Both the position numbers and the translations under genes were made by a program. Positions 1,033-18,481 of a DNA stretch of 18,481 nucleotides are shown in pieces. The DNA is taken from NCBI GenBank assembly GCA_013824045.1, contig PNND01000022.1:1-18481 (forward strand). Direction: 5' to 3'. How positions within the stretch are numbered: the first letter of the stretch is position 1; every line of letters starts with the position of its first letter. This DNA is from Rhodobacter sp. (GTDB lineage: Bacteria > Pseudomonadota > Alphaproteobacteria > Rhodobacterales > Rhodobacteraceae). The notes below the pieces were generated by a model. The model worked only from the letters and a program-made list of their open reading frames with translations, made no database searches and was not told where the DNA came from.

Positions 1033-1112
1033 GGACAGACCTTTCCTGACGCCGGGCATTGAACCGGGTCCCTGCCGTTTGTTCAACAGGAAGCAGCAGT
1101 TTCCTGTGCTGC

Positions 1113-1133
1113 CCGCGACAAAAGGTGTCGCGG
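1113..1133 (-). terminator. Hairpin downstream of the alpha/beta-hydrolase
   Basis: CCGCGACA and TGTCGCGG form a perfect 8-bp stem with a 5-nt loop (AAAGG on plus). It lies 24 nt past the hydrolase stop and about 80 bp before soxB. A second, weaker stem, ACAGGAA/TTCCTGT at 1086-1107 with an 8-nt loop, follows on the minus strand. Neither has a clean U-tract, so they may be partial terminators or mRNA 3'-end stabilisers. Confidence 0.45.
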
Positions 1134-1156
1134 ACGGGCTGCTTTACGCGGCAGGG

Positions 1157-2077: not shown

Positions 2078-2105
2078 GGGAAACCTTTCAAGGCGAAGAA
2101 ACAAA

Positions 2106-2128
2106 GAGTGGGCCGACAAGGCCCACTC
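2106..2128 (-). terminator. Rho-independent terminator after gdh, possible leader attenuator of the hydrolase
   Basis: GAGTGGGCC and GGCCCACTC form a perfect 9-bp stem with a 5-nt loop. On the minus strand it is followed by the T-rich run CTTTGTTTCTT, the classic intrinsic terminator layout. It lies 87 nt after the gdh stop but only 28 nt before the hydrolase ATG. Confidence 0.8.
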
Positions 2129-2214
2129 CGTTCCCTAACGCCCGTCGGGACAAACTCCGTCGCATCGCCCCGCACTTTGTTGCGTTGCGGCGATTTTCCC
2201 CCTGCGCCGTGCCG

Positions 2215-3645: not shown

Positions 3646-3832
3646 GTCATCCTCCCTGTCGCGCCGGAACAGGGGGCGCGGCCCTTGCCGTGAGGCTAGC
3701 ACAGCCGAATGCTGTGGCCTCGGTTTACGACGGACAGATTTGCACGGGGTTTAAGACGCCCGGATGAAACGCATGCAGATTCACCTGTCGCAGCAGGCGC
3801 GTGCCACCTGTCTGGCATAGCCGAACGCCCTT

Positions 3833-3898
3833 ATTCGTTAACGAATGCGCCCGGTTCTTTCCCAATCCTGCCTCAATCCTGCCTAGCAGAATGGTTAA
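3833..3898. promoter_or_regulatory. Perfect 14-bp palindrome plus CtrA-like half-site ahead of the Tad genes
   Basis: ATTCGTTAACGAAT (3833-3846) is a perfect inverted repeat centred on TTAA. About 45 bp further on, ATGGTTAA (3891-3898) reads TTAACCAT on the minus strand, the half-site commonly assigned to the response regulator CtrA in Rhodobacteraceae. CtrA is known to influence motility, Tad pilus and gene-transfer-agent genes in this group, so placement upstream of a Tad cassette is sensible. Binding itself is inference, and no full TTAA-N7-TTAA site is present. Confidence 0.4.
3863..3884. repeat. 11-bp tandem direct repeat
   Basis: CAATCCTGCCT occurs twice back to back, 3863-3873 and 3874-3884, between the palindrome and the CtrA-like half-site. 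It could be a paired protein-binding site or a simple duplication. Confidence 0.7.
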
Positions 3899-3957
3899 AA
3901 CAGCCAGACTTGAGGATGGGTACCAATCCGCTTGGAACATCCCGGAAAGGGCGAGAC

Positions 3958-4251
3958 ATGACGATTTATCATATCCACCGCCGCACGAGGGCAATCCTTG
4001 CCTTGGCAGCTTCGGGCGAATCAGTCTCCGGGAGCCTTCGGGCCGCCCGCAAAGCACTGTCTGCGGCCCCGCCACAATCATGGCGGAATTTGGCCGACCG
4101 TTTCGGCGATACCCCCGGCTTCAACCTCGAATCTTCACAACGCTTGCAGCCTGCACCGGCATCCCGCATCCCTGACCGGGGGTGCAAGGATGCGGTAAAC
4201 CGGATTTCCGGGCTGCCGTGCAACGATCATGGGATCATGGGTCATGCGTAA
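3958..4251 (+). CDS. Doubtful 97-codon ORF overlapping the TadG start
   Basis: A frame starting MTIYHIHRRTRAILALAASGES has an AAAGG/GGGCGAG-like sequence just upstream and ends in a TAA that overlaps the TadG ATG (ATGCGTAA), an arrangement that could couple translation. Against it, the product has no recognisable domain or membrane segment. It is rich in basic and small residues in a scrambled way, and only about two thirds of its third positions are G or C, clearly fewer than in the neighbouring genes. It may be a leader peptide, an unrecognised small protein or chance. I do not assign a function. Confidence 0.22.
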   Translation: MTIYHIHRRTRAILALAASGESVSGSLRAARKALSAAPPQSWRNLADRFGDTPGFNLESSQRLQPAPASRIPDRGCKDAVNRISGLPCNDHGIMGHA

Positions 4252-5893
4252 GACTGTCCTTTCTCTTCTCGGCCGTCCGTTTCGTCGGTTCCGCCGCAGC
4301 GAGGACGGCTCGCTGCTGGTCTTCGGCCTTTTCCTCTTCGCCACCTTCTTCCTGATGAGCGGCATGGCCGTTGATCTGATGCGGACCGAGAACCGCCGCG
4401 CCGCGCTGTCGCAATCGCTGGACCGCTGCGCCCTGAACGCCGCCGCGCTGCGCCAGACGCTGGACCCCGCCACCGTGGTCCGCGACTGCGTGGAACGCGA
4501 TGGGATGCTGCCCTTCCTGACCGAGGTCAAGGTGACGAGCCTCGCCGGACAACGTTCGATCGAGGTGAAGGGCAAGATCCCGGTCGAAACGATGTTCATG
4601 GGTGCATCCGGTATCGACGTGATCGATGTGGCCGCACGCTCGGTCGCCGAACAGCGGGCCACGAATATCGAGATCGTCCTCGCGCTTGACGTGTCCGGGT
4701 CGATGGCGGGAACCAAGCTGGATTCGCTGAAAACCTCGGCGAGGAACTTCGTGTCGACCGTTCTGGGCAACAACACCGACAGGATTTCCATCGCGGTCGT
4801 GCCCTACAACGGTCAGGTCAACCTTGGTCCGAACCTGCGGACCAAGTTCAACGTGACGAACATTCCGGGCCTGACGGCAACGCAGAACGTGAACTGCGTC
4901 GACATGCCGTCGAGCGTGTACAGCAATACCGGTATTGCGCGTACTCTGCCGATGCCCGCTACGGGCTGGGCAGATGCGTTTACGACGCTGGGCTCCTTCC
5001 CGACCAGCTATTCGACGGACGGCCGCGCGCCGACCGCGACCAACGTCTGGTGCCCGCCGTCGACGGCGAACATCGTGCGCCTGCAGGATGACAACATCAC
5101 AGCCCTGCACACCTATATCAATAACCTGACTGCGATCGGCGCAACCTCGATCAACGCAGGGATGAAGTGGGCTGGCGCGATGCTGGACCCGCAGTTCCGC
5201 AGCGTCGTGAACGAATATGTCGATGTGGGCACCATTCCGGTGGAATTCCGCGACCGCCCGTTCGACTATTCGAAGCGTGACGCGCTGAAGATTGTCGTCC
5301 TGATGACAGACGGGGAAAACTTCGGCGATGTGCGTCTGAACGACAACTTCCGCACCGGCCCTTCGCCCATCTTCAGGGGAACCGATGGCAACCACTCCAT
5401 CCAGTTCACGTCGGGCCGTCCGGCGGCGGCAGGGACCAACCAGTTCTGGGTGCCCCACCGCAACGAATGGCGCGCAACGTCTTGGGGCGGAACCACCAGC
5501 ACGACTGGCACCCCGCAAAGCTGGCAGCAAGTCTGGCAGGAGCTGAACGTCAGCTGGACCGCATGGCACCTCTATGCCCGCGCGCTTGGCACCTCCAGTT
5601 CCACGCGGACGAGCCTGTACAACACCTGGTTCAACAACTTCCGGAGCCAGCGCGGCACCAACGTCTCGACCCCTGAAATGGACGCCGAACTGCTGCAGAT
5701 CTGCAATCTGACGAAACAGCAGGGCGTGCTGGTCTACGGGATCGCCTTCTCGGCGCCCACGCGCGGCATCAACGCGGTCAGAGGTTGTTCTTCCTCGGAA
5801 GGCCACTTCTTCAACTCGACCAACACCACCCAGCTGAACGCCGCTTTCCAGGCCATCGCCACCAACATCACCCAGTTGAGGCTCGTGAACTGA
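4244..5893 (+). CDS. TadG-like Flp pilus assembly protein with vWA domain
   Basis: A 549-residue membrane-anchored protein of the TadG type, part of the Tad/Flp pilus system used for adhesion. A basic N-terminus and SEDGS motif precede one membrane segment at about 24-45, leaving the bulk periplasmic. The G22-SLLVF context lacks the Glu at +5 that TadV needs, so it is probably not cleaved like a pseudopilin. A von Willebrand A domain begins at about 143 with a MIDAS: Asp149-x-Ser151-x-Ser153 in DVSGS, Thr301 in GATS, and Asp356 in MTDGE. The spacing from Asp149 to Thr301 is long, implying an insertion, and a second S/T/N/W-rich stretch follows Asp356. Several Cys residues could form disulfides. 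The start is uncertain: ATGs at 4229 and 4244 are in frame and none has a good Shine-Dalgarno. Its stop overlaps the next start (TGATG). Confidence 0.85.
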   Translation: MRKTVLSLLGRPFRRFRRSEDGSLLVFGLFLFATFFLMSGMAVDLMRTENRRAALSQSLDRCALNAAALRQTLDPATVVRDCVERDGMLPFLTEVKVTSLAGQRSIEVKGKIPVETMFMGASGIDVIDVAARSVAEQRATNIEIVLALDVSGSMAGTKLDSLKTSARNFVSTVLGNNTDRISIAVVPYNGQVNLGPNLRTKFNVTNIPGLTATQNVNCVDMPSSVYSNTGIARTLPMPATGWADAFTTLGSFPTSYSTDGRAPTATNVWCPPSTANIVRLQDDNITALHTYINNLTAIGATSINAGMKWAGAMLDPQFRSVVNEYVDVGTIPVEFRDRPFDYSKRDALKIVVLMTDGENFGDVRLNDNFRTGPSPIFRGTDGNHSIQFTSGRPAAAGTNQFWVPHRNEWRATSWGGTTSTTGTPQSWQQVWQELNVSWTAWHLYARALGTSSSTRTSLYNTWFNNFRSQRGTNVSTPEMDAELLQICNLTKQQGVLVYGIAFSAPTRGINAVRGCSSSEGHFFNSTNTTQLNAAFQAIATNITQLRLVN

Positions 5894-6426
5894 TGCGTAT
5901 GTCATCCATGATGCGCCGCTTCCGGCGGCGCGAGGACGGTTCGGCCACGGCGGAATTCGTCATCCTTGTACCGCTGCTCTTTGCGATCTTTGTCGCAACG
6001 ATCGAAATCGGCATGATGATGTCGCGCTGGTCCAGCATAGACCGTGCCTCGGACATGGTGATCCGGTCGCTTCGGCTTGGCCAGTACACCAACCCGACAC
6101 CGCAACTGCTGCGGCAGGAAATCTGCGATGATGTGTTCCTCGTCGAGAATTGCTTCGAGAACATCGCCGTGGACATTCGCCGCATCAACCGGACCACGTT
6201 TGTGATGCCGGACAGGGATGCACCCTGCGTGACCCGCGATATCGACATCATTCAACCGGTCGTCGAAGTGACGCCGGGCCAGCAGAATGACCTGATGCTG
6301 ATCCGCGTCTGCGTGGCGGTGGATGCCTTGTTCCCGACATCGCGCGTTGCCTTGCCGATCACATTGGATGCTCAGGGCGGCTACGCGCTGTCGGTTGCAT
6401 CTGTGTACGTCAACGAACCAAGCTGA
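5893..6426 (+). CDS. TadE-like pseudopilin
   Basis: A 177-residue minor pilin-like protein. The basic leader MRMSSMMRRFRRREDG is followed by a G16/SATAEF site, which fits the processing motif of TadE/TadF pseudopilins (cut after Gly, Glu at +5, Phe at +6) by the prepilin peptidase TadV. A hydrophobic segment runs from about 22 to 42 (FVILVPLLFAIFVATIEIGMM). The remaining domain would face the periplasm and holds Cys residues in EICDD, ENCFE, APCVT and IRVCV that could pair. The ATG at 5893 shares one base with the TadG stop, so the two are translationally coupled. No prepilin peptidase, secretin or ATPase gene is nearby, so it must rely on a Tad machine encoded elsewhere. Confidence 0.82.
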   Translation: MRMSSMMRRFRRREDGSATAEFVILVPLLFAIFVATIEIGMMMSRWSSIDRASDMVIRSLRLGQYTNPTPQLLRQEICDDVFLVENCFENIAVDIRRINRTTFVMPDRDAPCVTRDIDIIQPVVEVTPGQQNDLMLIRVCVAVDALFPTSRVALPITLDAQGGYALSVASVYVNEPS

Positions 6427-6437
6427 GGGACAGTATC

Positions 6438-7019
6438 ATGAATTTCCTGTCCAAAATCACATCAGGTATCAAGCGGTCTGTCAGCCGGTTCGGCAAAGAC
6501 ACCTCTGGAAGCCTTTTGGCAGAAGCGATGTTCATCGTACCCGTCATGGCGATGGGGATGTCGGGCTTCTACGCCTTTTGGGATGCCTATCAGACCCAGA
6601 ACCGCGTGCAGAAAGGGGCCTATGCCATTTCCGACATGCTGTCGCGAGAGATGGTTCCCGCGTCGCCGGCCTTCTTGAACGGGCTGGAAGCCACGCTGGA
6701 ATATCTGATCGGCACGGATGCCCGCACCCGCATCACCAGCATCCGCCGCAACTCGGGCGGTCCTGTCGGCGCGACCGGGTTGACGGTGCTGTGGTCGCAT
6801 TCGCCCGGCGCCACGATGCCACCGCTGACCAATGCCACGCTCAATCAGGTGATATCAGAAGTGCCGATGATGGCCGTGGGCTCGAACGTCGTGGTCTATG
6901 AGGTTGTGGTCCCCTACGCTCCGGTGACAGATATCCTGACGCTGACCACGATCAACGAAGTCGTCGTCATGCGGCCGCGTTTCCTGCCCACGCTCTGCCT
7001 GACGGGCGTGACCTGCTGA
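6438..7019 (+). CDS. Second TadE/TadF-like pilus assembly protein
   Basis: A 193-residue protein, third in the cassette, 11 nt after the previous stop, with GAGGG about 8 nt before the ATG. The amphipathic basic N-terminus ends in DTSG24/SLLAEA: Gly at -1 and Glu29 at +5 agree with a TadV-type site, but +6 is Ala rather than Phe, so cleavage is less certain. The hydrophobic helix (MFIVPVMAMGMSGFYAFWDAY) spans about 31-51 and is followed by an extracytoplasmic domain. The protein ends CLTGVTC, with Cys as its last residue, which may form a terminal disulfide loop or pair with another subunit. All three Tad proteins share a short (E/K)D-x-S/G motif just before the helix, suggesting a common origin. 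A hairpin terminator follows 57 nt downstream. Confidence 0.75.
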   Translation: MNFLSKITSGIKRSVSRFGKDTSGSLLAEAMFIVPVMAMGMSGFYAFWDAYQTQNRVQKGAYAISDMLSREMVPASPAFLNGLEATLEYLIGTDARTRITSIRRNSGGPVGATGLTVLWSHSPGATMPPLTNATLNQVISEVPMMAVGSNVVVYEVVVPYAPVTDILTLTTINEVVVMRPRFLPTLCLTGVTC

Positions 7020-7075
7020 TCGGCGCGTGACGCGGGCCTCCTTCGGGGCTGTGCGCCACGGCACCAACCTTCTGC

Positions 7076-7101
7076 ACGGGGCGGCGTTGTCCGCCCCGTT
7101 T
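7076..7101 (+). terminator. Terminator of the Tad cassette
   Basis: ACGGGGCGG (7076-7084) and CCGCCCCGT (7091-7099) form a perfect 9-bp stem with a 6-nt loop, followed by a short T run. It lies 57 nt after the last Tad gene and 45 bp ahead of the pirin gene, separating the two units. Confidence 0.72.
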
Positions 7102-7145
7102 GCGTGACCTAGGTTAGGTTCACGCCAGCAGCAGGAAGACCGCCC

Positions 7146-8057
7146 ATGTCCATTCGTCCCGTCGTTCAGGAAGACCGTGCCCAGCCCACCTATGAAGGCG
7201 CGGGCGTGCATCTGCACCGCGCCTTTGGCTTTGGCGACCCGGACCGGATGGATCCGTTCCTGCTGTTTGATGATTTCCGCAACGAAGACCCGCGCGATTA
7301 CATGCGCGGCTTTCCGTGGCATCCCCATCGCGGGATCGAGACGATCACCTATGTTCTGGCCGGTGCCGTCGAACATGGCGACAGCCTTGGCAACCATGGC
7401 CTGCTGAAAGGCGGCGATGTCCAGTGGATGACCGCAGGGTCCGGCATCCTGCATCAGGAAATGCCGCGCGGGAATGCCAAGGGGCAGATGCACGGCTTCC
7501 AGCTTTGGGCGAACCTGCCCTCCAGCCTGAAGATGACCGCGCCGCGCTATCAGGACGTGAAGGGCAAGGACATCCCCGAAATCATGGATGATGACGGCAC
7601 GGTGGTGAAGGTGATCGTCGGGTCGTTCTGGGGCAAGACCGGCCCCGTGGACGGGATCGCCGCCGATCCGCAATACCTTGATATCTATGTTCCACCGGGG
7701 CGGAAGAAGACTTTCAAGGTGGATACATATCGCCGCGCCTTCGCCTATGTCTTCGACGGCAAGGGCACCTTCCGCGATGCCAGCCGCCCCAAGGGCGTGC
7801 TGCTGGAAAAGGAAGTGATGGGGCAAGAGGTGAACATCCGCGACATGTCGGGCGACCGCACGCTGGTGCAGTTCGGCACCGGGGATGAGGTGACGGTGCA
7901 GGCCGGGCCGGATGGCATCCGGTTTCTGCTGATCTCGGGCGCGCCGATTCAGGAACCCGTGGCATGGCACGGCCCCATCGTGATGAACACGCAGGCAGAG
8001 ATCCGGCAGGCCATGGCCGAATTGAAGAACGGCACCTTCATCCGGCCCGCGCATTGA
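7146..8057 (+). CDS. Pirin family protein (cupin, quercetinase-like)
   Basis: A 303-residue bicupin of the pirin family. The iron ligands are present in the N-terminal cupin: His59 and His61 in WHPHRG, and His103 and Glu105 in ILHQE, matching His56/His58/His101/Glu103 of human pirin. MTAGSGILHQEMP and the FDDFRNEDPRDY segment are family hallmarks. Bacterial pirins include enzymes with quercetin 2,3-dioxygenase activity and redox-sensing regulators, and the physiological substrate cannot be read from sequence. The start at 7146 has AGGAAG about 7 nt upstream. The CCTAGGTTAGG sequence at 7108-7118 lies in the upstream gap. It stands between two hairpins and looks monocistronic. No signal peptide, so cytosolic. 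Confidence 0.92.
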   Translation: MSIRPVVQEDRAQPTYEGAGVHLHRAFGFGDPDRMDPFLLFDDFRNEDPRDYMRGFPWHPHRGIETITYVLAGAVEHGDSLGNHGLLKGGDVQWMTAGSGILHQEMPRGNAKGQMHGFQLWANLPSSLKMTAPRYQDVKGKDIPEIMDDDGTVVKVIVGSFWGKTGPVDGIAADPQYLDIYVPPGRKKTFKVDTYRRAFAYVFDGKGTFRDASRPKGVLLEKEVMGQEVNIRDMSGDRTLVQFGTGDEVTVQAGPDGIRFLLISGAPIQEPVAWHGPIVMNTQAEIRQAMAELKNGTFIRPAH

Positions 8058-8090
8058 CGCGAGGGGCGCTTGCGGCTTTGGTGCAACTGG

Positions 8091-8112
8091 GGCGCGCATC
8101 CCGATGCGCGCC
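8091..8112. terminator. 10-bp hairpin between pirin and lipoprotein genes
   Basis: GGCGCGCATC (8091-8100) and GATGCGCGCC (8103-8112) are perfect inverted repeats around CC, giving in practice a 9-bp stem with a 4-nt loop. It lies 33 nt past the pirin stop and 8 nt before the lipoprotein's TGGAG sequence. Without a T run on either strand it could be a rho-assisted terminator or a leader structure. Confidence 0.5.
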
Positions 8113-8130
8113 AGCCTGACTGGAGCCCAG

Positions 8131-8352
8131 ATGATGCGCCTGCACCCTGCCCTCGCCTTCGCCTCTGTTGCCCTGCTTGCGGGGTGCAATGAGCCGGGCT
8201 TCATCCGCAAGGCCGAACCCGCGGCCACCCCCGCGCTCTTGCCGATCGAAGAGATCCTGACCGGCGACAGCCCGCAACTGGATGCCGAGGCCGCTGCCGC
8301 CCTGACAGCGCGCGGGGCCGCGTTGCGGGCAAAGGCGGGGACAGCGGGTTAG
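8131..8352 (+). CDS. Small lipoprotein, function unknown
   Basis: A 73-residue protein with a type II signal: MMRLHPALAFASVALLAGC, lipobox L-L-A-G-Cys19. After lipidation only about 55 residues remain, including ATPALLPIEEIL and an Ala-rich helical tail (LDAEAAAALTARGAALRAKA). Asn at +2 does not signal inner-membrane retention under the E. coli rule, so outer-membrane sorting is possible. TGGAG at 8121-8125 suits the ATG at 8131 (5 nt) or the next codon at 8134 (8 nt); an ATG at 8104 lies inside the hairpin and is unlikely. The homoserine dehydrogenase gene starts 68 nt downstream. I do not recognise the family. Confidence 0.7.
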   Translation: MMRLHPALAFASVALLAGCNEPGFIRKAEPAATPALLPIEEILTGDSPQLDAEAAAALTARGAALRAKAGTAG

Positions 8353-8420
8353 GCCGCGTTGCAAGCCTTGCCGTGAACAGCTAAGGGGGCGATGAGCCTG
8401 CCCGAATGATGGAGTATCCA

Positions 8421-9716
8421 ATGCCTGCGCCCCTTCGCCTTGGTCTTGCCGGTCTGGGAACCGTGGGCATCGGCGTGGTGAAGATCGTGCAAAAGCACGC
8501 CGACCTGATCGCCGCCCGCGCTGGCCGCCCGGTGGTGATCACCGCCGTCTCGGCCCGTGACAAGACAAGGAACCGCGATGCCGACCTGTCGGGTTATGCT
8601 TGGGAGACAGACCCTGTCGCACTGGCGCAGCGCGCGGATGTGGATGTTTTTGTCGAGGTGATGGGTGGCCATGAAGGCCCCGCCCGCGCCGCGACCGAGG
8701 CCGCGATTGCCGCTGGCAAGGACGTGGTCACCGCCAACAAGGCGCTGCTGGCCCATCACGGCCATGCGCTGGCGCTGGCCGCCGAAGCGGCAGGGCGCGT
8801 GATCCGGTTCGAGGCCGCCGTGGCGGGCGGCATTCCGGTGATCAAGACCCTGACCGAAGGGCTCGCCGGCAATCAGATGCGCCGGGTGATGGGCGTGATG
8901 AACGGCACCTGCAATTACATCCTGACCCGCATGGCCAATGCGGGGCTGCCTTACGAGACCGTCTTCGAAGAAGCCCGCCAGCTTGGCTATCTGGAGGCCG
9001 ACCCGAACCTTGACGTCGGCGGCATTGATGCCGGCCACAAGCTTTCCCTGCTGGCTGCCATCGCCTTTGGCACAAAGGTCAGCTTTGATCATGTGGAACT
9101 GGAAGGCATCGGCAATGTCTCGATCGAAGACATCCGCATGGCCGATGACATGGGCTATCACATCAAGCTGCTGGGTGTGGCGCAGATGACGGGGCGCGGG
9201 CTGGAACAGCGCATGACCCCCTGCCTTGTGCCTGCCGAAAGCCCGCTGGGCCAGTTGCAGGGCGGCACCAATATGGTGGTTCTGGATGGCGACAGCGTGG
9301 GCCAGATCGTGCTGCGCGGCCCCGGCGCGGGAGAAGGGCCAACGGCCAGCGCGGTGATGGGCGACGTCATCGACCTCGCGCGCGGTATCCGCGTGCCGAC
9401 CTTTGGTCGCCCTGCCGCCACGCTTGCCGATCCGATCCCCGCCAAGGCCGCAACCCCGGCCCCCTATTACCTGCGCATGACCCTGATCGACAAACCCGGC
9501 GCTCTGGCCAAGGTGGCCACCTGTCTGGGTGAGGCGGGCATTTCCATCGATCAGATGCGCCAGATCAATCAACCCGGTGAGGCGGATGACAAGGCGGTGG
9601 TGCTGATCGTCACCCACAAGGCCGCACCCGCCGACATCGCCTATGCGCTGGCGCGCTTTGGCGAAACCGGCGTGGTCATGGGCGCGCCTGTCGCCATCCG
9701 GATCGAGGAAGTCTGA
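8421..9716 (+). CDS. hom: Homoserine dehydrogenase with C-terminal ACT domain
   Basis: A 431-residue cytosolic enzyme reducing aspartate-4-semialdehyde to homoserine, at the branch to threonine, methionine and isoleucine. The NAD(P)-binding GLGTVG is at 11-16, TANKALL follows, then EAAVAGGIPVIKTL and MNGTCNYIL. The catalytic core carries GYLEADPNLDVGGIDAGHKL with the conserved Asp and Lys. A C-terminal ACT domain from about residue 350 (YYLRMTLIDKPGALAKVA) points to allosteric control, usually by threonine. Length is normal for the monofunctional ACT form. The start at 8421 is preferred over 8406 because GGAG sits 6 nt before it and the Rossmann strand follows directly. A weak TTGCAA at 8359 might be part of its promoter, without a convincing -10. 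Its 3' flank holds the hairpin cluster at 9726-9833. Confidence 0.96.
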   Translation: MPAPLRLGLAGLGTVGIGVVKIVQKHADLIAARAGRPVVITAVSARDKTRNRDADLSGYAWETDPVALAQRADVDVFVEVMGGHEGPARAATEAAIAAGKDVVTANKALLAHHGHALALAAEAAGRVIRFEAAVAGGIPVIKTLTEGLAGNQMRRVMGVMNGTCNYILTRMANAGLPYETVFEEARQLGYLEADPNLDVGGIDAGHKLSLLAAIAFGTKVSFDHVELEGIGNVSIEDIRMADDMGYHIKLLGVAQMTGRGLEQRMTPCLVPAESPLGQLQGGTNMVVLDGDSVGQIVLRGPGAGEGPTASAVMGDVIDLARGIRVPTFGRPAATLADPIPAKAATPAPYYLRMTLIDKPGALAKVATCLGEAGISIDQMRQINQPGEADDKAVVLIVTHKAAPADIAYALARFGETGVVMGAPVAIRIEEV

Positions 9717-9725
9717 GGGCGGGAC

Positions 9726-9833
9726 GAAAACTTTTCGCAGAAAAGTTTTCAGAAGGTGCAAATTTTTCTGCGAAAATTTGCCAGCCGGTCCTTGACCGGC
9801 GGGCCCGGAAAATTCTTCGCAGAAGAATTTTCC
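9726..9833. repeat. Cluster of four hairpins, three sharing a TTC-GCA-GAA core
   Basis: Four inverted repeats lie within 108 bp after hom. H1 (9726-9750): 11-bp perfect stem, loop GCA. H2 (9758-9781): 9-bp stem, 6-nt loop, with core TTCTGCGAA, the reverse complement of the H1 core. H3 (9784-9800): GCCGGTC/GACCGGC, loop CTT. H4 (9807-9833): 12-bp perfect stem, loop GCA. H1 and H4 share TTCGCAGAA at the tip; H2 carries it inverted. The A/T-rich stems stand out in GC-rich DNA. They may act as a bidirectional terminator or mRNA end for hom, or be copies of an intergenic palindromic repeat. Confidence 0.85.
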
Positions 9834-9945
9834 GCAGCGCCATCCGAAACACCTTGTCTTTCGTCTGTTAGCGCGACCACGCTTGCCCCACCCTTGCCCG
9901 GACGTTAAGGGGCTGGGGCACAGCCGGGGCGAGGAGCGACGACAC

Positions 9946-10911
9946 ATGGCCGACAAGCAGGAATTCGAAGACCGCCTTCTCTCGTTGGGCCTTGCCCGCG
10001 TGTCCGAGGCCGCCGCCTTGGCCAGCGCGCAACTGATCGGGCGCGGCGATGAAAAGGCCGCCGATCAGGCCGCCGTGAATGCCATGCGCGACCAGCTCAA
10101 CCTCTTGGACATCGCCGGGGTGGTGGTGATCGGCGAGGGCGAGCGGGACGAGGCGCCGATGCTCTATATCGGCGAACAGGTTGGCACCGGGAACGGCCCT
10201 GCCGTGGACATCGCGCTTGACCCGCTGGAAGGCACCACGCTCACCGCCAAGGACATGCCTAACGCCCTGACCGTGATCGCCATGGCCCCGCGCGGCACGA
10301 TGCTGCATGCGCCCGACGTCTATATGGAAAAGCTGGCCATCGGCCCCGGCTACAAGCCCGGCACCGTGACCATGACCATGAGCCCGTCGGAACGCGTCTC
10401 GGCATTGGCTGCCGCCAAGGGCTGCTCGACCGAGGATATCACCGTTTGCGTGCTGGAACGCCCCCGGCATGAAGAGATGATCGCCGAGATCCGCTCCACC
10501 GGCGCGTCGATCCGGCTCATCACCGATGGTGACGTGGCGGGTGTCATGCATTGCGCCGAACCCGAGGTGACGGGGATCGACATGTATATGGGTTCGGGTG
10601 GCGCGCCCGAGGGGGTGCTGGCCGCGGCGGCGCTGAAATGCATGGGCGGGCAGTTCTTCGGCAAGCTTCTGTTCCGCAACGAGGATGAGCGCGCCCGTGC
10701 CCGCAAGGCCGGGATCACCAATTTCGACCGCGTCTACACCCGCGACGATCTGGTGCGCGGCGACGTGATCTTTGCGGCCACGGGCGTGACCAGCGGATCG
10801 CTCCTTGCGGGGATCAAGCGCGAACCCGGTTTGGTCACGACAGAGACGATCCTGATGCGCTCCAAGACCGGATCGGTCCGGCGGATGACCTATCGCAGCC
10901 CGGTGAAGTGA
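9946..10911 (+). CDS. glpX: Class II fructose-1,6-bisphosphatase
   Basis: A 321-residue cytosolic Mg/Mn-dependent phosphatase converting fructose-1,6-bisphosphate to fructose-6-phosphate for gluconeogenesis (and for the Calvin cycle in autotrophic relatives, where a sedoheptulose-bisphosphatase role is also known). Metal- and phosphate-binding motifs are GEGERDEAPMLYIGE at 63-77 and DPLEGTT at 92-98. GDVAGV and GSGGAPEGVLAAAALKCMGG are also typical. Length agrees with GlpX proteins. The start at 9946 has GAGGAG 9 nt upstream, and an in-frame ATG at 9883 would add residues unlike the family. It is followed by two stem-loops and then recJ on the same strand, so the two may share a transcript. 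Confidence 0.95.
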   Translation: MADKQEFEDRLLSLGLARVSEAAALASAQLIGRGDEKAADQAAVNAMRDQLNLLDIAGVVVIGEGERDEAPMLYIGEQVGTGNGPAVDIALDPLEGTTLTAKDMPNALTVIAMAPRGTMLHAPDVYMEKLAIGPGYKPGTVTMTMSPSERVSALAAAKGCSTEDITVCVLERPRHEEMIAEIRSTGASIRLITDGDVAGVMHCAEPEVTGIDMYMGSGGAPEGVLAAAALKCMGGQFFGKLLFRNEDERARARKAGITNFDRVYTRDDLVRGDVIFAATGVTSGSLLAGIKREPGLVTTETILMRSKTGSVRRMTYRSPVK

Positions 10912-10921
10912 ACGCCGGTAT

Positions 10922-10976
10922 GCCCTGTCTTTCCGAGGGCAGGGCTTGCAGGAGGTGCCGCTTTGCGGCACTTCCT
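10922..10976 (+). promoter_or_regulatory. Two stem-loops between glpX and recJ, the second burying a GGAGG sequence
   Basis: GCCCTG/CAGGGC (10922-10945) forms a 6-bp stem with a 12-nt loop. Next, 10950-10961 pairs with 10965-10976 in a 12-bp stem (one G-U) with loop TTT. Its left arm contains GGAGG (10951-10955), so the only good Shine-Dalgarno-like sequence near recJ would be closed in RNA. It ends 5 nt before the recJ ATG. It may be a glpX terminator without a U-tract, a translational control element, or an intergenic palindromic repeat. Confidence 0.6.
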
Positions 10977-10981
10977 TCGGC

Positions 10982-12733
<1,752 letters not shown>

Positions 12734-12785
12734 CCGCGATGCGCGGCTATCCCGTCAAAGCGCCGCTCTGTCGCACATTTTCCCC

Positions 12786-12813
12786 TTGCGAGTCACCCGC
12801 CCCCCCTTTAGAC
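12786..12813 (+). promoter_or_regulatory. Possible sigma-70 promoter of tRNA-Glu
   Basis: TTGCGA (12786-12791) and TTAGAC (12808-12813) are spaced by 16 bp, with the expected transcription start a few bases before the tRNA at 12830. The 96-bp gap after recJ holds nothing else I can identify. The -35 is only a partial match. Confidence 0.45.
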
Positions 12814-12829
12814 ACCCGCCACCGACAGT

Positions 12830-12904
12830 GGCCCGTTCGTCTATCGGTTAGGACACCAGGTTTTCAACCTGGGAAGAGGGGTTCGACTCCCCTACGGGCT
12901 GCCA
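12830..12904 (+). tRNA. tRNA-Glu (anticodon UUC)
   Basis: A 75-nt gene including encoded CCA. The acceptor arms GGCCCGT/ACGGGCT pair with one G-U at the first position. The D-arm is TCGTCTATCGGTTAGGA, the anticodon stem CCAGG/CCTGG encloses TTTTCAA with TTC at 12863-12865, and the T-arm is GGGG-TTCGACT-CCCC. The discriminator is G. T5 follows directly and could serve as a terminator. It also supplies glutamyl-tRNA for tetrapyrrole synthesis by the C5 route where that is used; most alphaproteobacteria instead use the Shemin route. Confidence 0.97.
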
Positions 12905-13045
12905 TTTTTCCTACCATTCCGCCTGCCTGCACCCGCGCGCCTTTTGCGGCGATGGGCTGTTGCGCGCATTTTCCTGCGCACCCACTCCACACCCCAGCAC
13001 TGCCATGCCATGATGCCACCATACTCATGGCCGGATGAGGCACCC

Positions 13046-14674
13046 ATGCCCACGATCCCCCTTGGCCCCACGGGCCATAGCGACCCTTTCACCCGCAACG
13101 CCTTGCCCCCGGCAGAGCAGTGGCCAGACCTGCGGCTGGACGGCTTCGACTACCCCGAATGGCTGAACGCCGCCGTGGAACTGACCGACCGGATGGTGGA
13201 ACGGGGCTTTGGCGATCATACCGCGCTGATCGGCAATGGCCGGGCGCGGACCTACAAGGAACTGACCGACTGGTCGAACCGCATCGCCCATGCGCTGGTG
13301 GAAGATTACGGCGTCGAACCCGGCAACCGTGTCCTGATCCGATCCGCCAACAACCCGGCCATGGTGGCCTGCTGGCTGGCCGCCACCAAGGCAGGCGCGG
13401 TGGTGGTCAACACCATGCCCATGCTGCGCGCGGGTGAGTTGACGGCCATCGTGATCAAGGCTGAAATCACCCACGCCCTCTGCGATACCCGCCTGATGGA
13501 GGAACTGGTCGCCTGCCAGAAGGCCAGCGCCTTCCTCCACACCGTCGTGGGCTTTGACGGCACCGCCAACCACGATGCCGAGCTTGACCGGATCGCCTTG
13601 CGTAAACCCGTCCGCTTTACCCCGCCACCCACGGGCCGCGATGATGTGGCGCTTCTGGGCTTCACCTCGGGCACGACCGGAGAGCCGAAGGCCACGATGC
13701 ATTTCCACCGTGACCTGCTGATCATCGCTGATGGCTATGCGCGCGAGGTGCTGAACGTCACCCCCGCAGACGTCTTTGTCGGCTCCCCGCCGTTGGCCTT
13801 CACCTTCGGCCTTGGCGGGCTGGCCATCTTCCCTTTGCGCTTCGGTGCGGCGGCGGCGCTGCTGGAACAGGCCAGCCCCCCGAACATGATCGACATCATC
13901 ACCGAACACCGCGCCACGATCTGCTTCACCGCCCCCACCGCTTACCGCGTCATGCTCAAGGCGATGGAGGAAGGGGCGGATCTGTCCTCACTCCGCGCCG
14001 CCGTCAGCGCGGGCGAAACCCTGCCCGCCCCGGTCTATGACGAATGGATGGCGCGCACCGGCAAGCCCATGCTCGACGGCATCGGCGCGACCGAGATGCT
14101 GCACATCTTCCTCACCAACCGCTTCGATGACCACCGCCCCGGCTGCACCGGCCGCCCCGTCACGGGGTATGAGGCGCGGATCGTCGGCCCCGACATGGAA
14201 GAACTTGCCCGCGGCGAAGTGGGCCGTCTGGCCGTGCGCGGCCCCACCGGCTGCCGCTACATGTCCGACAGCCGACAGACCGGCTATGTGAAGAACGGCT
14301 GGAACCTGACGGGCGACAGTTTCTGGCAGGATGACGAGGGCCGCTTCCACTTTGCCGCCCGCTCGGACGACATGATCATCTCCGCGGGCTACAACATCGC
14401 CGGGCCAGAGGTCGAGGCGGCGCTGCTGTCGCACCCCGCCGTGCTCGAATGCGCCGTGATCGGGGCCGCGGACGCAGAACGCGGCCAGATCGTCGAGGCG
14501 CATGTGGTGCTCGCCCCCGGCCAAGCGGGCGATGCGCTGATGGTCAAGCTTTTGCAGGACCATGTGAAAAAGGTGATCGCCCCCTACAAATACCCGCGCC
14601 GGGTGCTGTTCACCGATGCCTTGCCGAAAACCCAGACCGGCAAGATCCAGCGCTTCCGGTTGCGTCAGGCCTAG
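13046..14674 (+). CDS. Aromatic acid-CoA ligase, benzoate/2-aminobenzoate type
   Basis: A 542-residue ANL-superfamily ligase that activates a carboxylic acid with ATP and CoA through an acyl-adenylate. The P-loop FTSGTTGEPKATMHFHRD spans about 206-223; the HFHRD ending is typical of benzoate and 2-aminobenzoate-CoA ligases. The A5 motif reads GIGATEMLHIF, again of that subgroup. LTGDSFWQDDEGRF, the hinge RSDDMIISAGYNI and the C-terminal lysine Lys533 in TQTGKIQRF are intact. The start at 13046 has GATGAGG 5 nt upstream. The convergent operon of acyl-CoA dehydrogenase, crotonase, thioesterase and MarR genes favours an aromatic acid degraded as its CoA thioester, with anthranilate the best guess. 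The exact substrate is inference, and a medium-chain or other aryl acid is possible. Its TAG shares CTAG with the opposing Rid gene stop. Confidence 0.88.
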   Translation: MPTIPLGPTGHSDPFTRNALPPAEQWPDLRLDGFDYPEWLNAAVELTDRMVERGFGDHTALIGNGRARTYKELTDWSNRIAHALVEDYGVEPGNRVLIRSANNPAMVACWLAATKAGAVVVNTMPMLRAGELTAIVIKAEITHALCDTRLMEELVACQKASAFLHTVVGFDGTANHDAELDRIALRKPVRFTPPPTGRDDVALLGFTSGTTGEPKATMHFHRDLLIIADGYAREVLNVTPADVFVGSPPLAFTFGLGGLAIFPLRFGAAAALLEQASPPNMIDIITEHRATICFTAPTAYRVMLKAMEEGADLSSLRAAVSAGETLPAPVYDEWMARTGKPMLDGIGATEMLHIFLTNRFDDHRPGCTGRPVTGYEARIVGPDMEELARGEVGRLAVRGPTGCRYMSDSRQTGYVKNGWNLTGDSFWQDDEGRFHFAARSDDMIISAGYNIAGPEVEAALLSHPAVLECAVIGAADAERGQIVEAHVVLAPGQAGDALMVKLLQDHVKKVIAPYKYPRRVLFTDALPKTQTGKIQRFRLRQA

Positions 14675-15081
14675 CCGGGGATCACCGCCGTCGCCTCAAT
14701 CTCCACCTTCGCGCGGTCCTCGACCAGCGCCACCACCTGCACCAGCGCCATCGCCGGGTAATGTCGCCCGATCACCGCCTTATAGACGCGGCCCAATTCC
14801 TTGAGCGACCCAAGGTATTCCCGCTTGTCGGTGACATACCAAGTCAGCCGCACCAGATGCTCCGGCCCTGCCCCCGCACAAGCCAGCACCTCGACGATGG
14901 ACTTCAGCGCTTGCTCCACTTGCCCCACGAAATCATCCGTCTCAAAGACCTGATCGGCATTCCAGCCGATGATCCCCCCCGTGAACACCATCCGCCCCGT
15001 GGCGGCGACCCCGTTGGAATAGCCGATGGCGGGCTTCCAATGCGACGGGTGCAGGAATTGCAGCGCGGTGTCGGTGGTCAT
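14671..15081 (-). CDS. Rid (YjgF/YER057c/UK114) family protein lacking the RidA arginine
   Basis: A 136-residue chorismate-mutase-like trimeric fold. Typical features are YSNGV, VFTGG(I), VEQALKSIVEVLA, RLTWYVTD and a VEIEATAVI C-terminus. Archetypal RidA hydrolyses reactive 2-aminoacrylate-type imines using an Arg in a PARS motif; here the same place reads YPA-Met111-AL, so the Arg is absent and this is one of the divergent Rid subfamilies. The Glu of the EIEA motif is kept (Glu129). The start overlaps the thioesterase stop by 4 nt (ATGA), with GGAG 8 nt upstream, making it the last gene of the operon. In this setting an enamine or imine hydrolase acting on a pathway intermediate is attractive, as 2-aminomuconate deaminases also belong to this fold, but this is inference. 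Confidence 0.9.
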   Translation of the reverse strand: MTTDTALQFLHPSHWKPAIGYSNGVAATGRMVFTGGIIGWNADQVFETDDFVGQVEQALKSIVEVLACAGAGPEHLVRLTWYVTDKREYLGSLKELGRVYKAVIGRHYPAMALVQVVALVEDRAKVEIEATAVIPG

Positions 15082-15488
15082 GCCTGTGTCTCCAGATGCG
15101 CGGTCAGCACCGCGCGAATACGATCGGGCCAGCGGGCCGGCCGCCCCTCGGGCGACATCCAGACCAGCACCAGCCGAGCCATCAGGCGATGTTCTCCGCC
15201 GCTGCCCATGTCCAGCCGGAGGGTGACGGAACTGCCGCCCACCCGCTCCACCACCAGCACCCAGTCCAGCACATCGCCCAACCGCGACGGCGCGCGGAAA
15301 TCCGTCTCGATCCGCGCTGTCGGCACGCCGATCCCGTCCGCCATCATGGCATGATAGGAATAGCCCACCACTTCGCGGAAGAAATTCTCGCAGACGGAAT
15401 TCGTCATCTCGAAATAGCGGGGATAAAAGACGATCCCCGCCGGATCGCAATGGTTGAACTCCACCCGGATCGTACGCGCATAGCTCAT
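15078..15488 (-). CDS. Acyl-CoA thioesterase, 4-hydroxybenzoyl-CoA thioesterase-like hotdog
   Basis: A 136-residue single-hotdog protein. [19 protein letters not shown] at 10-28 is the signature of the 4-hydroxybenzoyl-CoA thioesterase/YbgC group, with Asp15 corresponding to the catalytic Asp17 of the Pseudomonas CBS3 enzyme. It hydrolyses an acyl- or aroyl-CoA to the free acid and CoA. In a CoA-dependent aromatic pathway such enzymes often free CoA from dead-end or over-accumulated thioesters. It overlaps the acyl-CoA dehydrogenase stop by 4 nt (ATGA) and has only a weak Shine-Dalgarno (GCTGGG), so translation is probably coupled. Substrate not readable from sequence. Confidence 0.88.
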
Positions 15489-16621
15489 CCCAGCACGCTC
15501 CGCGCGATCACCACCCGCTGCACATCCGATGCGCCTTCATAAATGCGCAGCGCCCGGATCTCGCGATACAGGCTCTCCACCACCGATCCGTGCCGCACGC
15601 CATCGCCGCCATGCAGTTGCACCGCCATGTCGATCACCTCCTGCGCGGCCTCGGTGGCGTAAAGCTTGGCCATCGCCGCCTCGCGCGTGACGCGCGCGGC
15701 GCCATTGTCTTTCACCCAGGCCGCGCGATAGACCAGCAGGGCAGCCGCGTCGATCTTCAGTGCCATATCGGCCAGATGCCCCTGCACCATCTGCAATTCG
15801 GCCAGCGCCTGCCCCTGAATCCGCCGCGCGCGCGTCCGCGCCAGCGCCTCATCCAACGCCCGACGCGCAAAGCCCAGCGCCGCCGCCCCCACGGTCGAGC
15901 GGAACACATCCAGCACCGACATGGCGATCCGGAACCCCGCGCCCGCCTCGCCGATCAGCGCCTCTTCCGGCAGCACCATCCCCGTCATCCGCAAACTCGC
16001 CAAAGGATGCGGCGCGATCACCTCCAGCCGCTCCACAACCTGCAGCCCCGCGCTCTTTGCCGGCATCAGAAAGGCCGACAACCCCTTCGCCCCCGGCGCC
16101 TCCCCCGTCCGCGCAAAGACGACATAGACATCGGCAATCCCGCCATTGGAAATCCATGTCTTCTCGCCCTCGATCAGCCATCCGCCCTGCACCCGCGTGG
16201 CCGTGGTCGCGGTTGCCGCCACATCCGACCCCGATCCCGGCTCGGTCAGCGCAAAGCCCGCAATCGCTGCCCCCGCCCGCGTGCGTGCCAGCCATTCCTG
16301 CTGCTCGGGCGTGCCGAACAGGCTCACCGGCCCCATGCCCAGCCCCTGCATGGCAAAGGCGAAATCCGCCAGCCCGTCATGCCGCGCCAAGGTTTCGCGG
16401 ATCAGGCAGAGCGTGCGCACATCCAGCCGCTCGCCCGCCCCCGCCCCGCTGTGGCGCAACCAGCCGCCATCCCCCAGCATCGCCACCAGAGCCCGGCAAG
16501 CCGCATCCACATCGCCATGATCCACCGGCAGATGCGCCACGCACCACGCCTCAAGCGCGACAGCCAGGTCGCGATGCCGATCTTCAAAGAAGGGCCAGTC
16601 CAAGAAACTCGTATCGCTCAT
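15485..16621 (-). CDS. Acyl-CoA dehydrogenase
   Basis: A 378-residue FAD enzyme, normal length, that desaturates acyl-CoA at the alpha-beta position and passes electrons to ETF. Flavin and substrate motifs are [13 protein letters not shown] followed by GEKTWISNG, and [11 protein letters not shown] near the C-terminus. The catalytic base is Glu362 in [10 protein letters not shown]. The N-terminal domain is short and atypical ([21 protein letters not shown]). The start at 16621 has only AGAG upstream; the open frame continues upstream through the palindromic repeats, but those residues do not resemble the family. It is separated from the crotonase by 85 bp of repeats, the only sizeable gap in the operon. 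Role: likely dehydrogenation of a ring-derived or branched acyl-CoA in the CoA-thioester pathway. Confidence 0.92.
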
Positions 16622-16639
16622 CTTCTCTGTTCCAAATAT

Positions 16640-16705
16640 CCTCAGGGGGTGAGGCCGTAAGGCCGAGGGGGCGCGAGCGCCCCCTGATTTTTCGCATGAA
16701 AAATC
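16640..16705. repeat. Array of four palindromes inside the operon
   Basis: In plus-strand order: CCTCA/TGAGG (16640-16654, loop 5), GGCC-GTAA-GGCC (16653-16664), AGGGGGCGC/GCGCCCCCT (16666-16685, effectively 8 bp with a 4-nt loop) and GATTTTTC-GCAT-GAAAAATC (16686-16705, 8-bp stem). They abut one another with almost no spacer and begin 1 nt after the crotonase stop on the minus strand. The last stem shares the TTC-GCA-GAA theme of the cluster at 9726-9833. Likely a mobile intergenic repeat, an mRNA processing/stability element or a partial terminator. Confidence 0.8.
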
Positions 16706-16706
16706 G

Positions 16707-17519
16707 TCAATCCCCGCCAAACACCGGCGTCTCCTTGGCCACAAAGGCGCGGTAAGCCCGCTCGAAATCGCGGGTCTGCATGCAGATGGCCTGCGCTTGC
16801 GCCTCGGCCTCGATCGCCTGCTCCAGCCCCATGTTCCATTCCTGATTGAGCTGGGTCTTGGTGATCCCATGGGCAAATGTCGGCCCCGCCGCCAAGGCAC
16901 GCGCCAGCGTCATCGCCGCCCCTTCCAACTCTTCTGCCGGATGCAGGCTGTTCCAGAACCCCCAGCGCTCGCCCTCTTCGGCCCGCAGCACCCGGCCTGT
17001 ATAGAGCAGTTCCGCCGCACGCCCTTGCCCCACGATCCGGGGCAGCATCGCGCAGGCCCCCATGTCACAGCCCGCCAACCCCACGCGGGTGAACAGGAAG
17101 GCGCATTTCGCCCCCGGTGTCGCCAGCCGCAGGTCGGATGCCATCGCCATGATCGCCCCTGCCCCCACGCAGACGCCATCCACCGCCGCGATGATGGGCT
17201 TGCCGCAGCCGACCATCGCCTTGACCAGATCGCCGGTCATCCGGGTGAAGGCGAGAAGCTCCTTCATCTCCATCCCCACCAGCGGGCCGATGATGTCATG
17301 CACATCGCCGCCGGAACAGAAATTCCCCCCATTGGACGCGATCACTACCACATCCACATCCGTGGCATAGACCAGCGCGCGGAACGTATCGCGCAACTCG
17401 GCATAGCTTTGAAACGTCAGCGGGTTCTTCCGCTCGGGCCGGTTCAGCCGCACCACGGCGACCCGGTCCACCACCTCCCACAGGAAATGTTCGGGCCTGA
17501 GCCCCGCCATCGCGCCCAT
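16707..17519 (-). CDS. Crotonase (enoyl-CoA hydratase/isomerase family), atypical active site
   Basis: A 270-residue crotonase. [12 protein letters not shown] at 24-35, the oxyanion segment [10 protein letters not shown] at 66-75 and [20 protein letters not shown] at 115-133 are clear. In classical hydratase two Glu residues (144 and 164 in rat) act as acid/base; here the first aligns with Phe143 (AFLFTRVG) while the second is kept as Glu170 (RAAELLYTG). The loop reads GCDMG (Asp152), suggesting different chemistry such as ring hydrolysis or isomerisation. ATG 17519 is chosen because GGGAGG lies 6 nt upstream; it shares one base with the MarR stop (TGATG). A GTG at 17522 and ATG at 17510 are alternatives. 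It lies between MarR and acyl-CoA dehydrogenase in the operon. Confidence 0.9.
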
Positions 17520-17965
17520 CACGCGCCTCCCATGCGTTTGAGAATATCGGTCAGCGTATCCAGATCCGCCTCGGACAGGTTGGCAAAGCGGCGCGAAACC
17601 TCCGCCTCATGCCCGGCGGCCAGCCCTTCGAACTGCGCCAGCCCCTCCGCCGTCAGCGCGACAAAGACCGTGCGCCGGTCCGTCTCGGACGGGGTTCGCC
17701 GCACCAGCCCGTCCTTTTCCAGCCGGTCCACCACCGTGGTCGCATTGCCGTTCGATACCAGCAGCATCCGGCTCAACTCGCTCATCGTCACACCATCGCG
17801 GCGGCGATAAAGCGCGGCCATCACGTCGAAGCGCGGCAGGGTCGTCTGGTGCTGTACCCGCAGGAATTCGCGCAGGTCGCTTTCGGCCACCCGTGTGACC
17901 CCCAGCAGGCGAATCCACATCTTCAACCGCCGTTTCGACAGCGGGTCCGTGGCGGGATCGCTCAT
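17519..17965 (-). CDS. MarR family transcriptional regulator
   Basis: A 148-residue winged-helix dimer. [47 protein letters not shown] is the recognition helix and wing, with the conserved DRR. Flanking helices ([14 protein letters not shown] and the C-terminal [16 protein letters not shown]) form the dimer interface. MarR regulators beside aromatic CoA ligases usually repress the pathway and are released by the aroyl-CoA, so this one probably controls its own operon; its operator is expected ahead of the first gene, beyond the right edge, and perhaps ahead of the ligase. The start at 17965 overlaps the SDR stop by 4 nt (ATGA), with a G-rich GGGGAG just upstream. A longer in-frame start at 18031 would lie inside the SDR gene and lacks family support. 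Confidence 0.93.
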
Positions 17966-18481
17966 GTCTCCCCCCCGGCAATCACGATGCCCTGCCCGTT
18001 CACGCCCTCGGCCCCGTCGGATGCCAGCCACAAGGCCGCCGATGTCACCTCATCCGGGCGATACAGGCGGTTCTGCGGGCTCATCGCCTCCAGCGCGGCG
18101 CGGGCCTCGGCCAGCGACCGGCCGGTTTTCTCCGAAATCACCTTGATGGAATGGTCGGTCATCTCGGTATCAAGGAAGCCTGGGCAGATCGCGTTCACCG
18201 TCACCGGCCCGCGCGCCACCTCTAGCGCCAGCGACCGCACGATCCCCATCACCCCATGTTTCGCCGCCGCATAGGGGGCCACCTTGGCATAGCCCTTCAC
18301 CCCCGCCGTCGACGCCACGGCAATCAGCCGCCCCCAGCCATCGAACTGCCGCAACCCTTCGCGGAAGGTCAGGAAGACCCCCGTCAGGTTCACCGCCAGC
18401 ATGGCATTCCATTGGTCCAGCGTGGTGCGGGCAAAGGGCGCGCTGTCCGCCTGCCCCGCATTGGCGATGACCACATCCACT
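17962..18481 (-). CDS. Short-chain dehydrogenase/reductase (partial, N-terminus off right edge)
   Basis: The last 172 or so residues of a classical SDR, an NAD(P)-dependent oxidoreductase. Visible are VDVVIANAG (the structural NAG motif), NLTGVFLTF, the catalytic Ser in ASTAGVKG, the YAAAK motif with Tyr and Lys, and the CPGFLDTEM segment after it. The C-terminal [12 protein letters not shown] is typical. The Rossmann TGxxxGxG part must lie beyond the window. It is the first visible gene of the minus-strand operon and in context probably a 3-hydroxyacyl-CoA or hydroxy-ring-acyl-CoA dehydrogenase, acting on the product of the crotonase. FabG-like annotation would be equally consistent with sequence alone. 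Confidence 0.93.
   Translation of the reverse strand, partial: VDVVIANAGQADSAPFARTTLDQWNAMLAVNLTGVFLTFREGLRQFDGWGRLIAVASTAGVKGYAKVAPYAAAKHGVMGIVRSLALEVARGPVTVNAICPGFLDTEMTDHSIKVISEKTGRSLAEARAALEAMSPQNRLYRPDEVTSAALWLASDGAEGVNGQGIVIAGGET

Follow-up and report, generated by a model that had tools for sequence, protein, structure and literature searches.

The aerobic degradation of anthranilate (2-aminobenzoate) through coenzyme A (CoA) thioesters is described in Azoarcus evansii, whose abm clusters encode a CoA ligase, a two-domain flavoprotein (2-aminobenzoyl-CoA monooxygenase/reductase, ABMR) and enzymes for beta-oxidation-type steps, and in Arthrobacter sp. Rue61a, in which the ligase encoded by pAL1 displays anthranilate-CoA ligase activity in E. 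coli extracts and a C7H8O4-CoA ester is reported, in the portion of the article available, from anthranilate-grown cells only (PMC3534580). Tryptophan degradation via anthraniloyl-CoA monooxygenase/reductase was omitted from a 2022 survey of catabolic pathways for lack of knowledge, according to the accessible part of its text (PMC9007349). The window analyzed here, a stretch of 18,481 nucleotides, is the entire contig PNND01000022.1 (C23) of a 512-contig, 83%-complete assembly of a Rhodobacter sp. (GCA_013824045.1). Positions 13046-18481 very probably carry an ABMR-type cluster, cut short, for the aerobic breakdown of anthranilate via CoA esters; the organism is a Rhodobacter/Tabrizicola-like alphaproteobacterium. 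As an anthranilate-CoA operon the cluster is genuine and well conserved; it belongs to a kind already known, is widespread and has an unremarkable general layout.

A preliminary description of this DNA reported a ligase gene opposing a compact operon of SDR, MarR, crotonase, acyl-CoA dehydrogenase (ACAD), thioesterase and Rid genes; all seven genes are confirmed, with the ligase on the plus strand facing SDR-MarR-crotonase-ACAD-thioesterase-Rid on the minus strand. The features are as follows:

13046..14674, plus strand: AMP-forming aryl-CoA ligase, probably a 2-aminobenzoate (anthranilate)-CoA ligase, 542 residues (PF00501/PF13193; TIGR02262; PDB 4wv3; pAL1 ligase)
14671..15081, minus strand: Rid (YjgF/UK114) protein with Met at the position of RidA Arg105 (PF01042)
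15078..15488, minus strand: 4HBT hotdog acyl-CoA thioesterase, its start overlapping the ACAD stop (PF13279/PF03061)
15485..16621, minus strand: ACAD, 378 residues (PF00441/PF02770)
16622..16706, no strand: repeated hairpin-rich intergenic element in the crotonase/ACAD gap
16707..17519, minus strand: crotonase-fold protein of the NF006107 (PRK08258) type, candidate ring-opening hydrolase/isomerase (NF006107, 477.7 bits; PaaF/PaaG alignment)
17519..17965, minus strand: MarR-family regulator (PF01047)
17962..18481, minus strand: SDR-family oxidoreductase, 5' part absent at the contig end (PF13561; the gene continues in relatives)

The operon is tightly packed, with ATGA overlaps at the SDR/MarR, ACAD/thioesterase and thioesterase/Rid junctions and TGATG at MarR/crotonase, and its sole wider intergenic gap is 16622-16706. 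The ligase and Rid genes converge, with CTAG at 14671-14674 common to both stops. The SDR gene is cut because the window is the whole contig and the assembly ends there.

The ligase translation contains both motifs that were read from it at the outset (HFHRD and GIGATEMLHIF). Its assignment as a benzoate/2-aminobenzoate-CoA ligase is upheld: the best PDB match is the anthranilate-CoA ligase 4wv3 (274.6 bits vs 253.1 for benzoate-CoA ligases). The score against TIGR02262 (benz_CoA_lig; 365 bits) falls just under the cut-off of 375.25. The protein is 53% identical to the assayed pAL1 ligase. Among the best 80 of the 585 loci that encode a relative of the ligase, identity is 78-90% over at least 531 of the 542 residues; 63 of these 80 encode an ABMR and 20 a tryptophan dioxygenase (TDO) or kynureninase (KynU). 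The crotonase passes NF006107 with 477.7 bits against a cut-off of 330. The locus is therefore not a chance assemblage, since the 80 ligase relatives are near full-length and the crotonase belongs to a defined family. The ligase of L009 (positions 12101-20231, Rhodobacter amnigenus), which at 90% is among the two closest, has no such operon in the stretch fetched and is neighbored by genes that, by reading of the open reading frames (ORFs), encode a Rieske-type oxygenase, a glutathione S-transferase, an amidohydrolase and a BMP-type ABC transporter.

The ring-attacking enzyme was initially placed beyond position 18481, where a two-domain flavoprotein was to be sought. This position is the contig end, and NF006101 family and protein searches of the organism's own assembly found no ABMR, giving only old yellow enzyme (OYE)-domain matches (28-36%) and weak monooxygenase matches; a scan of viral contigs for ABMR likewise found none. 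Synteny was therefore examined. In four loci whose ligase and operon converge as in the window (L010, L013, L224 and L225), an ABMR-type flavoprotein lies directly upstream of the SDR gene, so the predicted position is borne out in relatives. The flavoproteins of L010 (Tabrizicola sp.; 761 residues) and L013 (Rhodobacter sp.) have a VioD-like N-terminal FAD monooxygenase part followed by a C-terminal Oxidored_FMN domain. Close-relative ABMRs exceed the NF006101 cut-off of 1078 (1273.6 bits for L010, and 1275.7 bits), and the Pfam FAD_binding_3 match of the L010 protein is just under its cut-off (21.3 vs 22). Of 18 same-genus genomes, 15 pass NF006101 (all except G003, G004 and G013); SDR and MarR are present in all 15 of their ABMR loci and crotonase, ACAD, thioesterase and Rid in 14, the exception (L213) being cut by a contig start/end.

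The gap in the own assembly is bridged by L225, a 16-kb stretch of the same-genus relative G018 that aligns on both of its flanks: C23:9925-18480 to L225:1-8567 (89%) and C84:2-1208 to L225:14794-16000 (91%). The 6.2-kb counterpart of the gap (L225:8568-14793) holds the rest of the SDR gene, the ABMR and divergent genes for a hydratase, a dehydrogenase and a PcaF-like thiolase. The closest families are PaaF for the hydratase (244 bits; cut-off 371), PRK08268/PaaH for the dehydrogenase (359; cut-off 508) and 3-oxoadipyl-CoA thiolase for the thiolase (561; cut-off 605), and all three scores stay below the cut-off. Taken together, this PaaF-/PaaH-/PcaF-like trio points to beta-oxidation of a dicarboxylyl-CoA. 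The suggestion that the gene set suits later, beta-oxidation-like steps thus holds in the window for ACAD, crotonase and SDR, while the hydratase, dehydrogenase and thiolase are seen in the relative only. ABMR, hydratase, dehydrogenase and thiolase are all expected in the organism itself; because ABMR is absent from its assembly, we infer an ABMR-type pathway there from synteny.

A phylum sample of 398 genomes reveals how constant the gene set is. Stretches of up to 20 kb, some shortened by contig ends, were taken around all 65 NF006101 matches over the cut-off (63 genomes); the counts leave out seven flavoproteins that match over almost their full length and score slightly below it (968-1053 bits). 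As controls, 40 stretches were taken around proteins that match just the OYE part, and 24 of these come from genomes in which an ABMR locus was found as well. At the thresholds used, the 65 loci include MarR in 55, crotonase in 54, SDR in 51, ACAD in 48, ligase in 48 and Rid in 45. ABMR, SDR, crotonase and ACAD occur together in 42 loci, of which 31 have Rid and 33 the ligase in the stretch.

The same survey bears on the substrate. TDO or KynU is encoded within about 9 kb of 12 of the 65 ABMR loci and of none of the 40 controls (Fisher p 0.003), and any of four kynurenine-related queries, of which the cyclase-family and alpha/beta-hydrolase queries are less specific, matches at 21 of 65 vs 0 of 40 (p 2e-5); these Fisher values assume independence among the genomes, which does not hold. 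TDO lies between Rid and the ligase in L014 and L016 (as two alignment pieces in L016) and directly after the ligase in L059 and L066. The organism's own genome has KynU and TDO over cut-off, together on contig C189. Anthranilate, the substrate proposed at the start, is well supported by genomic context, through the TDO/KynU enrichment and the own KynU and TDO; the 4wv3 match and the identity to the pAL1 ligase agree with it.

The Rid protein is the member of the cluster that departs from its family. The current rule, as given in the available parts of two articles, makes Arg105 the deciding residue for deaminase activity in Rid proteins (PMC8113886, PMC5619798). The window Rid has Met in place of this Arg and falls outside the Arg105 Rid-deaminase class. 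Rids scoring at least 60 bits to one of three query Rids were collected from 166 loci and aligned with E. coli RidA: all 132 have Met in the Arg105 column and retain Glu120, and 129 retain Tyr17 (one Phe, two gaps). The 132 are not independent cases, as some species recur among the loci and the score threshold favors related proteins. Met is also found in the Rids of three actinobacterial clusters, one of them beside the assayed ligase of pAL1. In two test sets of 30 loci each (3 and 6 of which gave no alignment row), Rids of at least 110 bits have Met in 22 of 22 (the window's included) and 13 of 13, two further copies (G005:C9 and G025:C71) standing outside the tests, while weaker paralogues have Met in 0 of 5 and 1 of 11 (L336, 82 bits).

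Occurrence of this Rid follows that of ABMR. Among 41 relatives, a Rid of at least 110 bits is present in 19 of 19 genomes with an ABMR over the cut-off vs 1 of 20 without (p 3e-10, uncorrected for kinship); G000 and G031 (flavoprotein split over contigs) were excluded from this count, and each has such a Rid. A prediction that anthranilate-type genomes lacking Rid in the stretch would encode it elsewhere was stated before the result, with earlier data already known: all nine have a Met105 Rid, which lies 0.2-2.1 kb beyond the stretch in eight and at a distant site in the ninth (G154). G235, G354 and G355, whose ABMR locus is shortened, also have a Met105 Rid elsewhere in the genome. By contrast, no Met105-type Rid was found, at the thresholds used, in four gentisate-type loci, in which NF006101-family flavoproteins adjoin homologs of gentisate dioxygenase and FAH (L114, L168, L171 and L198), nor genome-wide in G335 and G388, which have a gentisate-type locus only (best scores 26 and 50 bits). 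An exclusive linkage of Met105 Rid to ABMR was considered and dropped, as G035 has a Met105 Rid (46%) and no flavoprotein match. The Rid of G035 (L311, positions 9371-13989) is adjoined by ORFs that read as amidase-like and acyl-CoA-synthetase-like.

These enzymes suggest a pathway, each enzymatic step of which we infer for the organism itself. Tryptophan would be converted via kynurenine to anthranilate by the TDO and KynU of contig C189, and the ligase would form 2-aminobenzoyl-CoA. The ABMR product would be an enamine thioester with no free carboxylate, which Rid may hydrolyze to 2,5-dioxocyclohexanecarboxyl-CoA and ammonia; the C7H8O4-CoA of Rue61a fits this deaminated dioxocyclohexanecarboxyl-CoA intermediate. 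The SDR would then reduce a keto group. BadI opens a ring at a beta-keto thioester, and the crotonase is by analogy a candidate for such an opening, to a linear C7 dicarboxylyl-CoA; aligned with PaaF and PaaG, it has Arg at the Glu of the PaaF PEI motif and an Asp near that of PaaG. ACAD and the PaaF/PaaH/PcaF-like set could finish the beta-oxidation of the linear dicarboxylyl-CoA. The order in which SDR, crotonase and ACAD act is conjectural. MarR is probably an aryl-CoA sensor, and the thioesterase may free CoA for reuse from esters that are dead ends.

Several observations weigh against the assignment to anthranilate and its ABMR pathway. Besides the failure to find ABMR in the own assembly, TDO/KynU are within about 9 kb at none of the 15 same-genus loci, two loci among the closest ligases (L009 and L012) are devoid of the operon in the stretch fetched, and only 20 of the 65 phylum loci encode the thioesterase, which is optional in the cluster. 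The substrate assignment is drawn from context and homology, and the flavoprotein family extends to gentisate-type loci (3 of the 65 phylum loci, plus L114). In a flavoprotein tree built by a quick method, with some long branches, the gentisate-type loci occupy two separate positions among the anthranilate-type ones, and ABMR by itself was dropped as a substrate marker for this reason. Two loci (L050 and L054) combine the full cluster with a gentisate-dioxygenase homolog nearby on the opposite strand. A salicylate-CoA route, in which the flavoprotein merely hydroxylates salicylyl-CoA at C5 to gentisyl-CoA and a thioesterase frees gentisate for ring cleavage, would accord with the NCBI name of NF006101 (salicylyl-CoA 5-hydroxylase/oxidoreductase) and with the four gentisate-type loci, which also have a thioesterase match. 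These loci, however, have no SDR, crotonase, ACAD, Rid or window-type ligase at the thresholds used, whereas the window operon includes every one of these; no role is known for an ACAD/crotonase/SDR set in gentisate breakdown, and kynurenine genes cluster with the window-type loci. Moreover, neither gentisate dioxygenase nor FAH was detected among eight scanned window proteins or in the 15 same-genus loci, and the route is considered very unlikely for the window. Also very unlikely is that another benzoate (e.g., plain or fluorinated) is the natural substrate and anthranilate a side activity. Aryl-CoA ligases of the window type are reported, in the part of the article available, to accept benzoate, fluorobenzoates and 2-aminobenzoate (PMC8388817), but the enrichment of TDO/KynU, the TDO located inside the operon in L014 and L016, and the linkage to Rid, an enamine/imine-related family, all favor anthranilate.

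With anthranilate as the substrate, the role of Rid is more evenly debated. One proposal, held tentatively and judged somewhat short of an even chance, is that the window Rid belongs to a distinct Arg105-to-Met group of dedicated pathway deaminases that hydrolyze the enamine CoA thioester formed by ABMR, with Met in place of Arg since a thioester replaces the carboxylate. In the RidA paralog TdcF, the arginine binds the ligand carboxylate (PMC4433059, in part); the loss of Arg is understandable where the substrate carries a thioester instead. Rid is a natural candidate for the hydrolysis because it is common, with ligase and ABMR, to the proteobacterial and actinobacterial versions and absent from gentisate-type loci, although thioesterases and small cupins are likewise shared in part by the two versions, and gentisate-type loci give thioesterase matches too. 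Standing against the proposal, no Rid that lacks Arg105 has yet displayed deaminase activity, as far as the available text of PMC8113886 goes, and RutC R104A is inactive (PMC8113886; PMC4433059, both in part). It is about as probable that Rid, having lost Arg105, is no deaminase here and acts in a protective or chaperone-like manner while the enamine deaminates spontaneously. Such a role accords less readily with the co-occurrence with ABMR (19/19 vs 1/20 genomes), the conserved Met, the retained Glu120 and the nearly invariant Tyr17, or with the lack of this Rid in gentisate-type loci and in the two gentisate-only genomes tested. Rid genes have been placed in other aromatic regulons (BoxR and CatM/BenM; PMC6449761, in part). 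Among the open-licence PubMed Central articles listed, no title or abstract opening assigned a Rid to the anthraniloyl-CoA pathway; the 2001 A. evansii (Schuhle) and 2007 pAL1 (Parschat) papers are outside that scope and may list a Rid gene.

If Rid is a deaminase, the rule that ties deaminase activity to Arg105 would be overturned and an unassigned step of the pathway filled, and the conserved gene set more generally supplies candidates for the steps after ABMR. The name salicylyl-CoA 5-hydroxylase, as applied in plasmid annotation, covers both the anthranilate and the gentisate kinds, seemingly two pathways; Met105 Rid together with the flavoprotein provides a usable sequence mark to separate anthranilate clusters from gentisate ones.

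Other features of the window and its relatives are of separate interest. The element at 16622-16706 is REP-like, and at least 13 other places in the own genome carry a partial copy of it (74-89% over 37-109 bases; 40 of 328 candidates scored); its predicted fold has a z of -1.89, with 9 of 200 shuffles as good. Left of the cluster (1-12733), ORFs named by reading include a cut FAD-dependent oxidoreductase, an alpha/beta hydrolase and glutamate dehydrogenase-like, pilus-assembly/vWA-like, pirin-like, homoserine dehydrogenase and fructose bisphosphatase-like proteins; RecJ is also encoded. In a haloarchaeal stretch (L278, positions 3853-19460, a plasmid of Natronococcus sp. CG52), genes for indoleamine dioxygenase and kynureninase accompany one for a ligase with 45% identity to that of the window and one for a diverged ABMR-like protein, whose NF006101 score of 826 bits is below the cut-off. 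No Rid was matched in the stretch, which is perhaps an archaeal version of the anthranilate-CoA pathway.

Compared with known systems, the window resembles the A. evansii pathway in its kinds of enzyme, as given in the available account, and differs in that the place expected for its ABMR falls in the assembly gap and its ligase is convergent to the operon. On pAL1, a ligase and a Met105 Rid like those of the window lie close to an ABMR (50% identical to that of L010) (ARUE_RS22905/22910 being equated by position with ARUE_113p00220/00230); FAH, cupin, acyl-CoA thioesterase and PaaX regulators are present instead of SDR, crotonase, ACAD and MarR. A Rhodococcus cluster similarly has FAH, cupin and acyl-CoA thioesterase around a Met105 Rid, its record listing an SDR and an ACAD further along that the searches did not match. 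Closer in gene content is the megaplasmid of Ruegeria pomeroyi DSS-3 (SPO_RS21860-21905), with the order ABMR-SDR-MarR-crotonase-ACAD-ligase-Rid, an 81% identical ligase and a divergent TDO; its ligase is on the operon strand, and a small cupin replaces the window's thioesterase, whereas in Gemmobacter fulvus the cupin adjoins the thioesterase. The RidA and RutC deaminases share the fold family of the window-type Rids, which keep Glu120 and Tyr17 but have Met for Arg105, which is reported as required in Rid deaminases. A precedent for a Rid-family pathway deaminase in aromatic catabolism is the 2-aminomuconate deaminase AmnE, which differs from the window Rid in retaining the arginine (Arg117) and in having a free acid as substrate (PMC6742747, in part).

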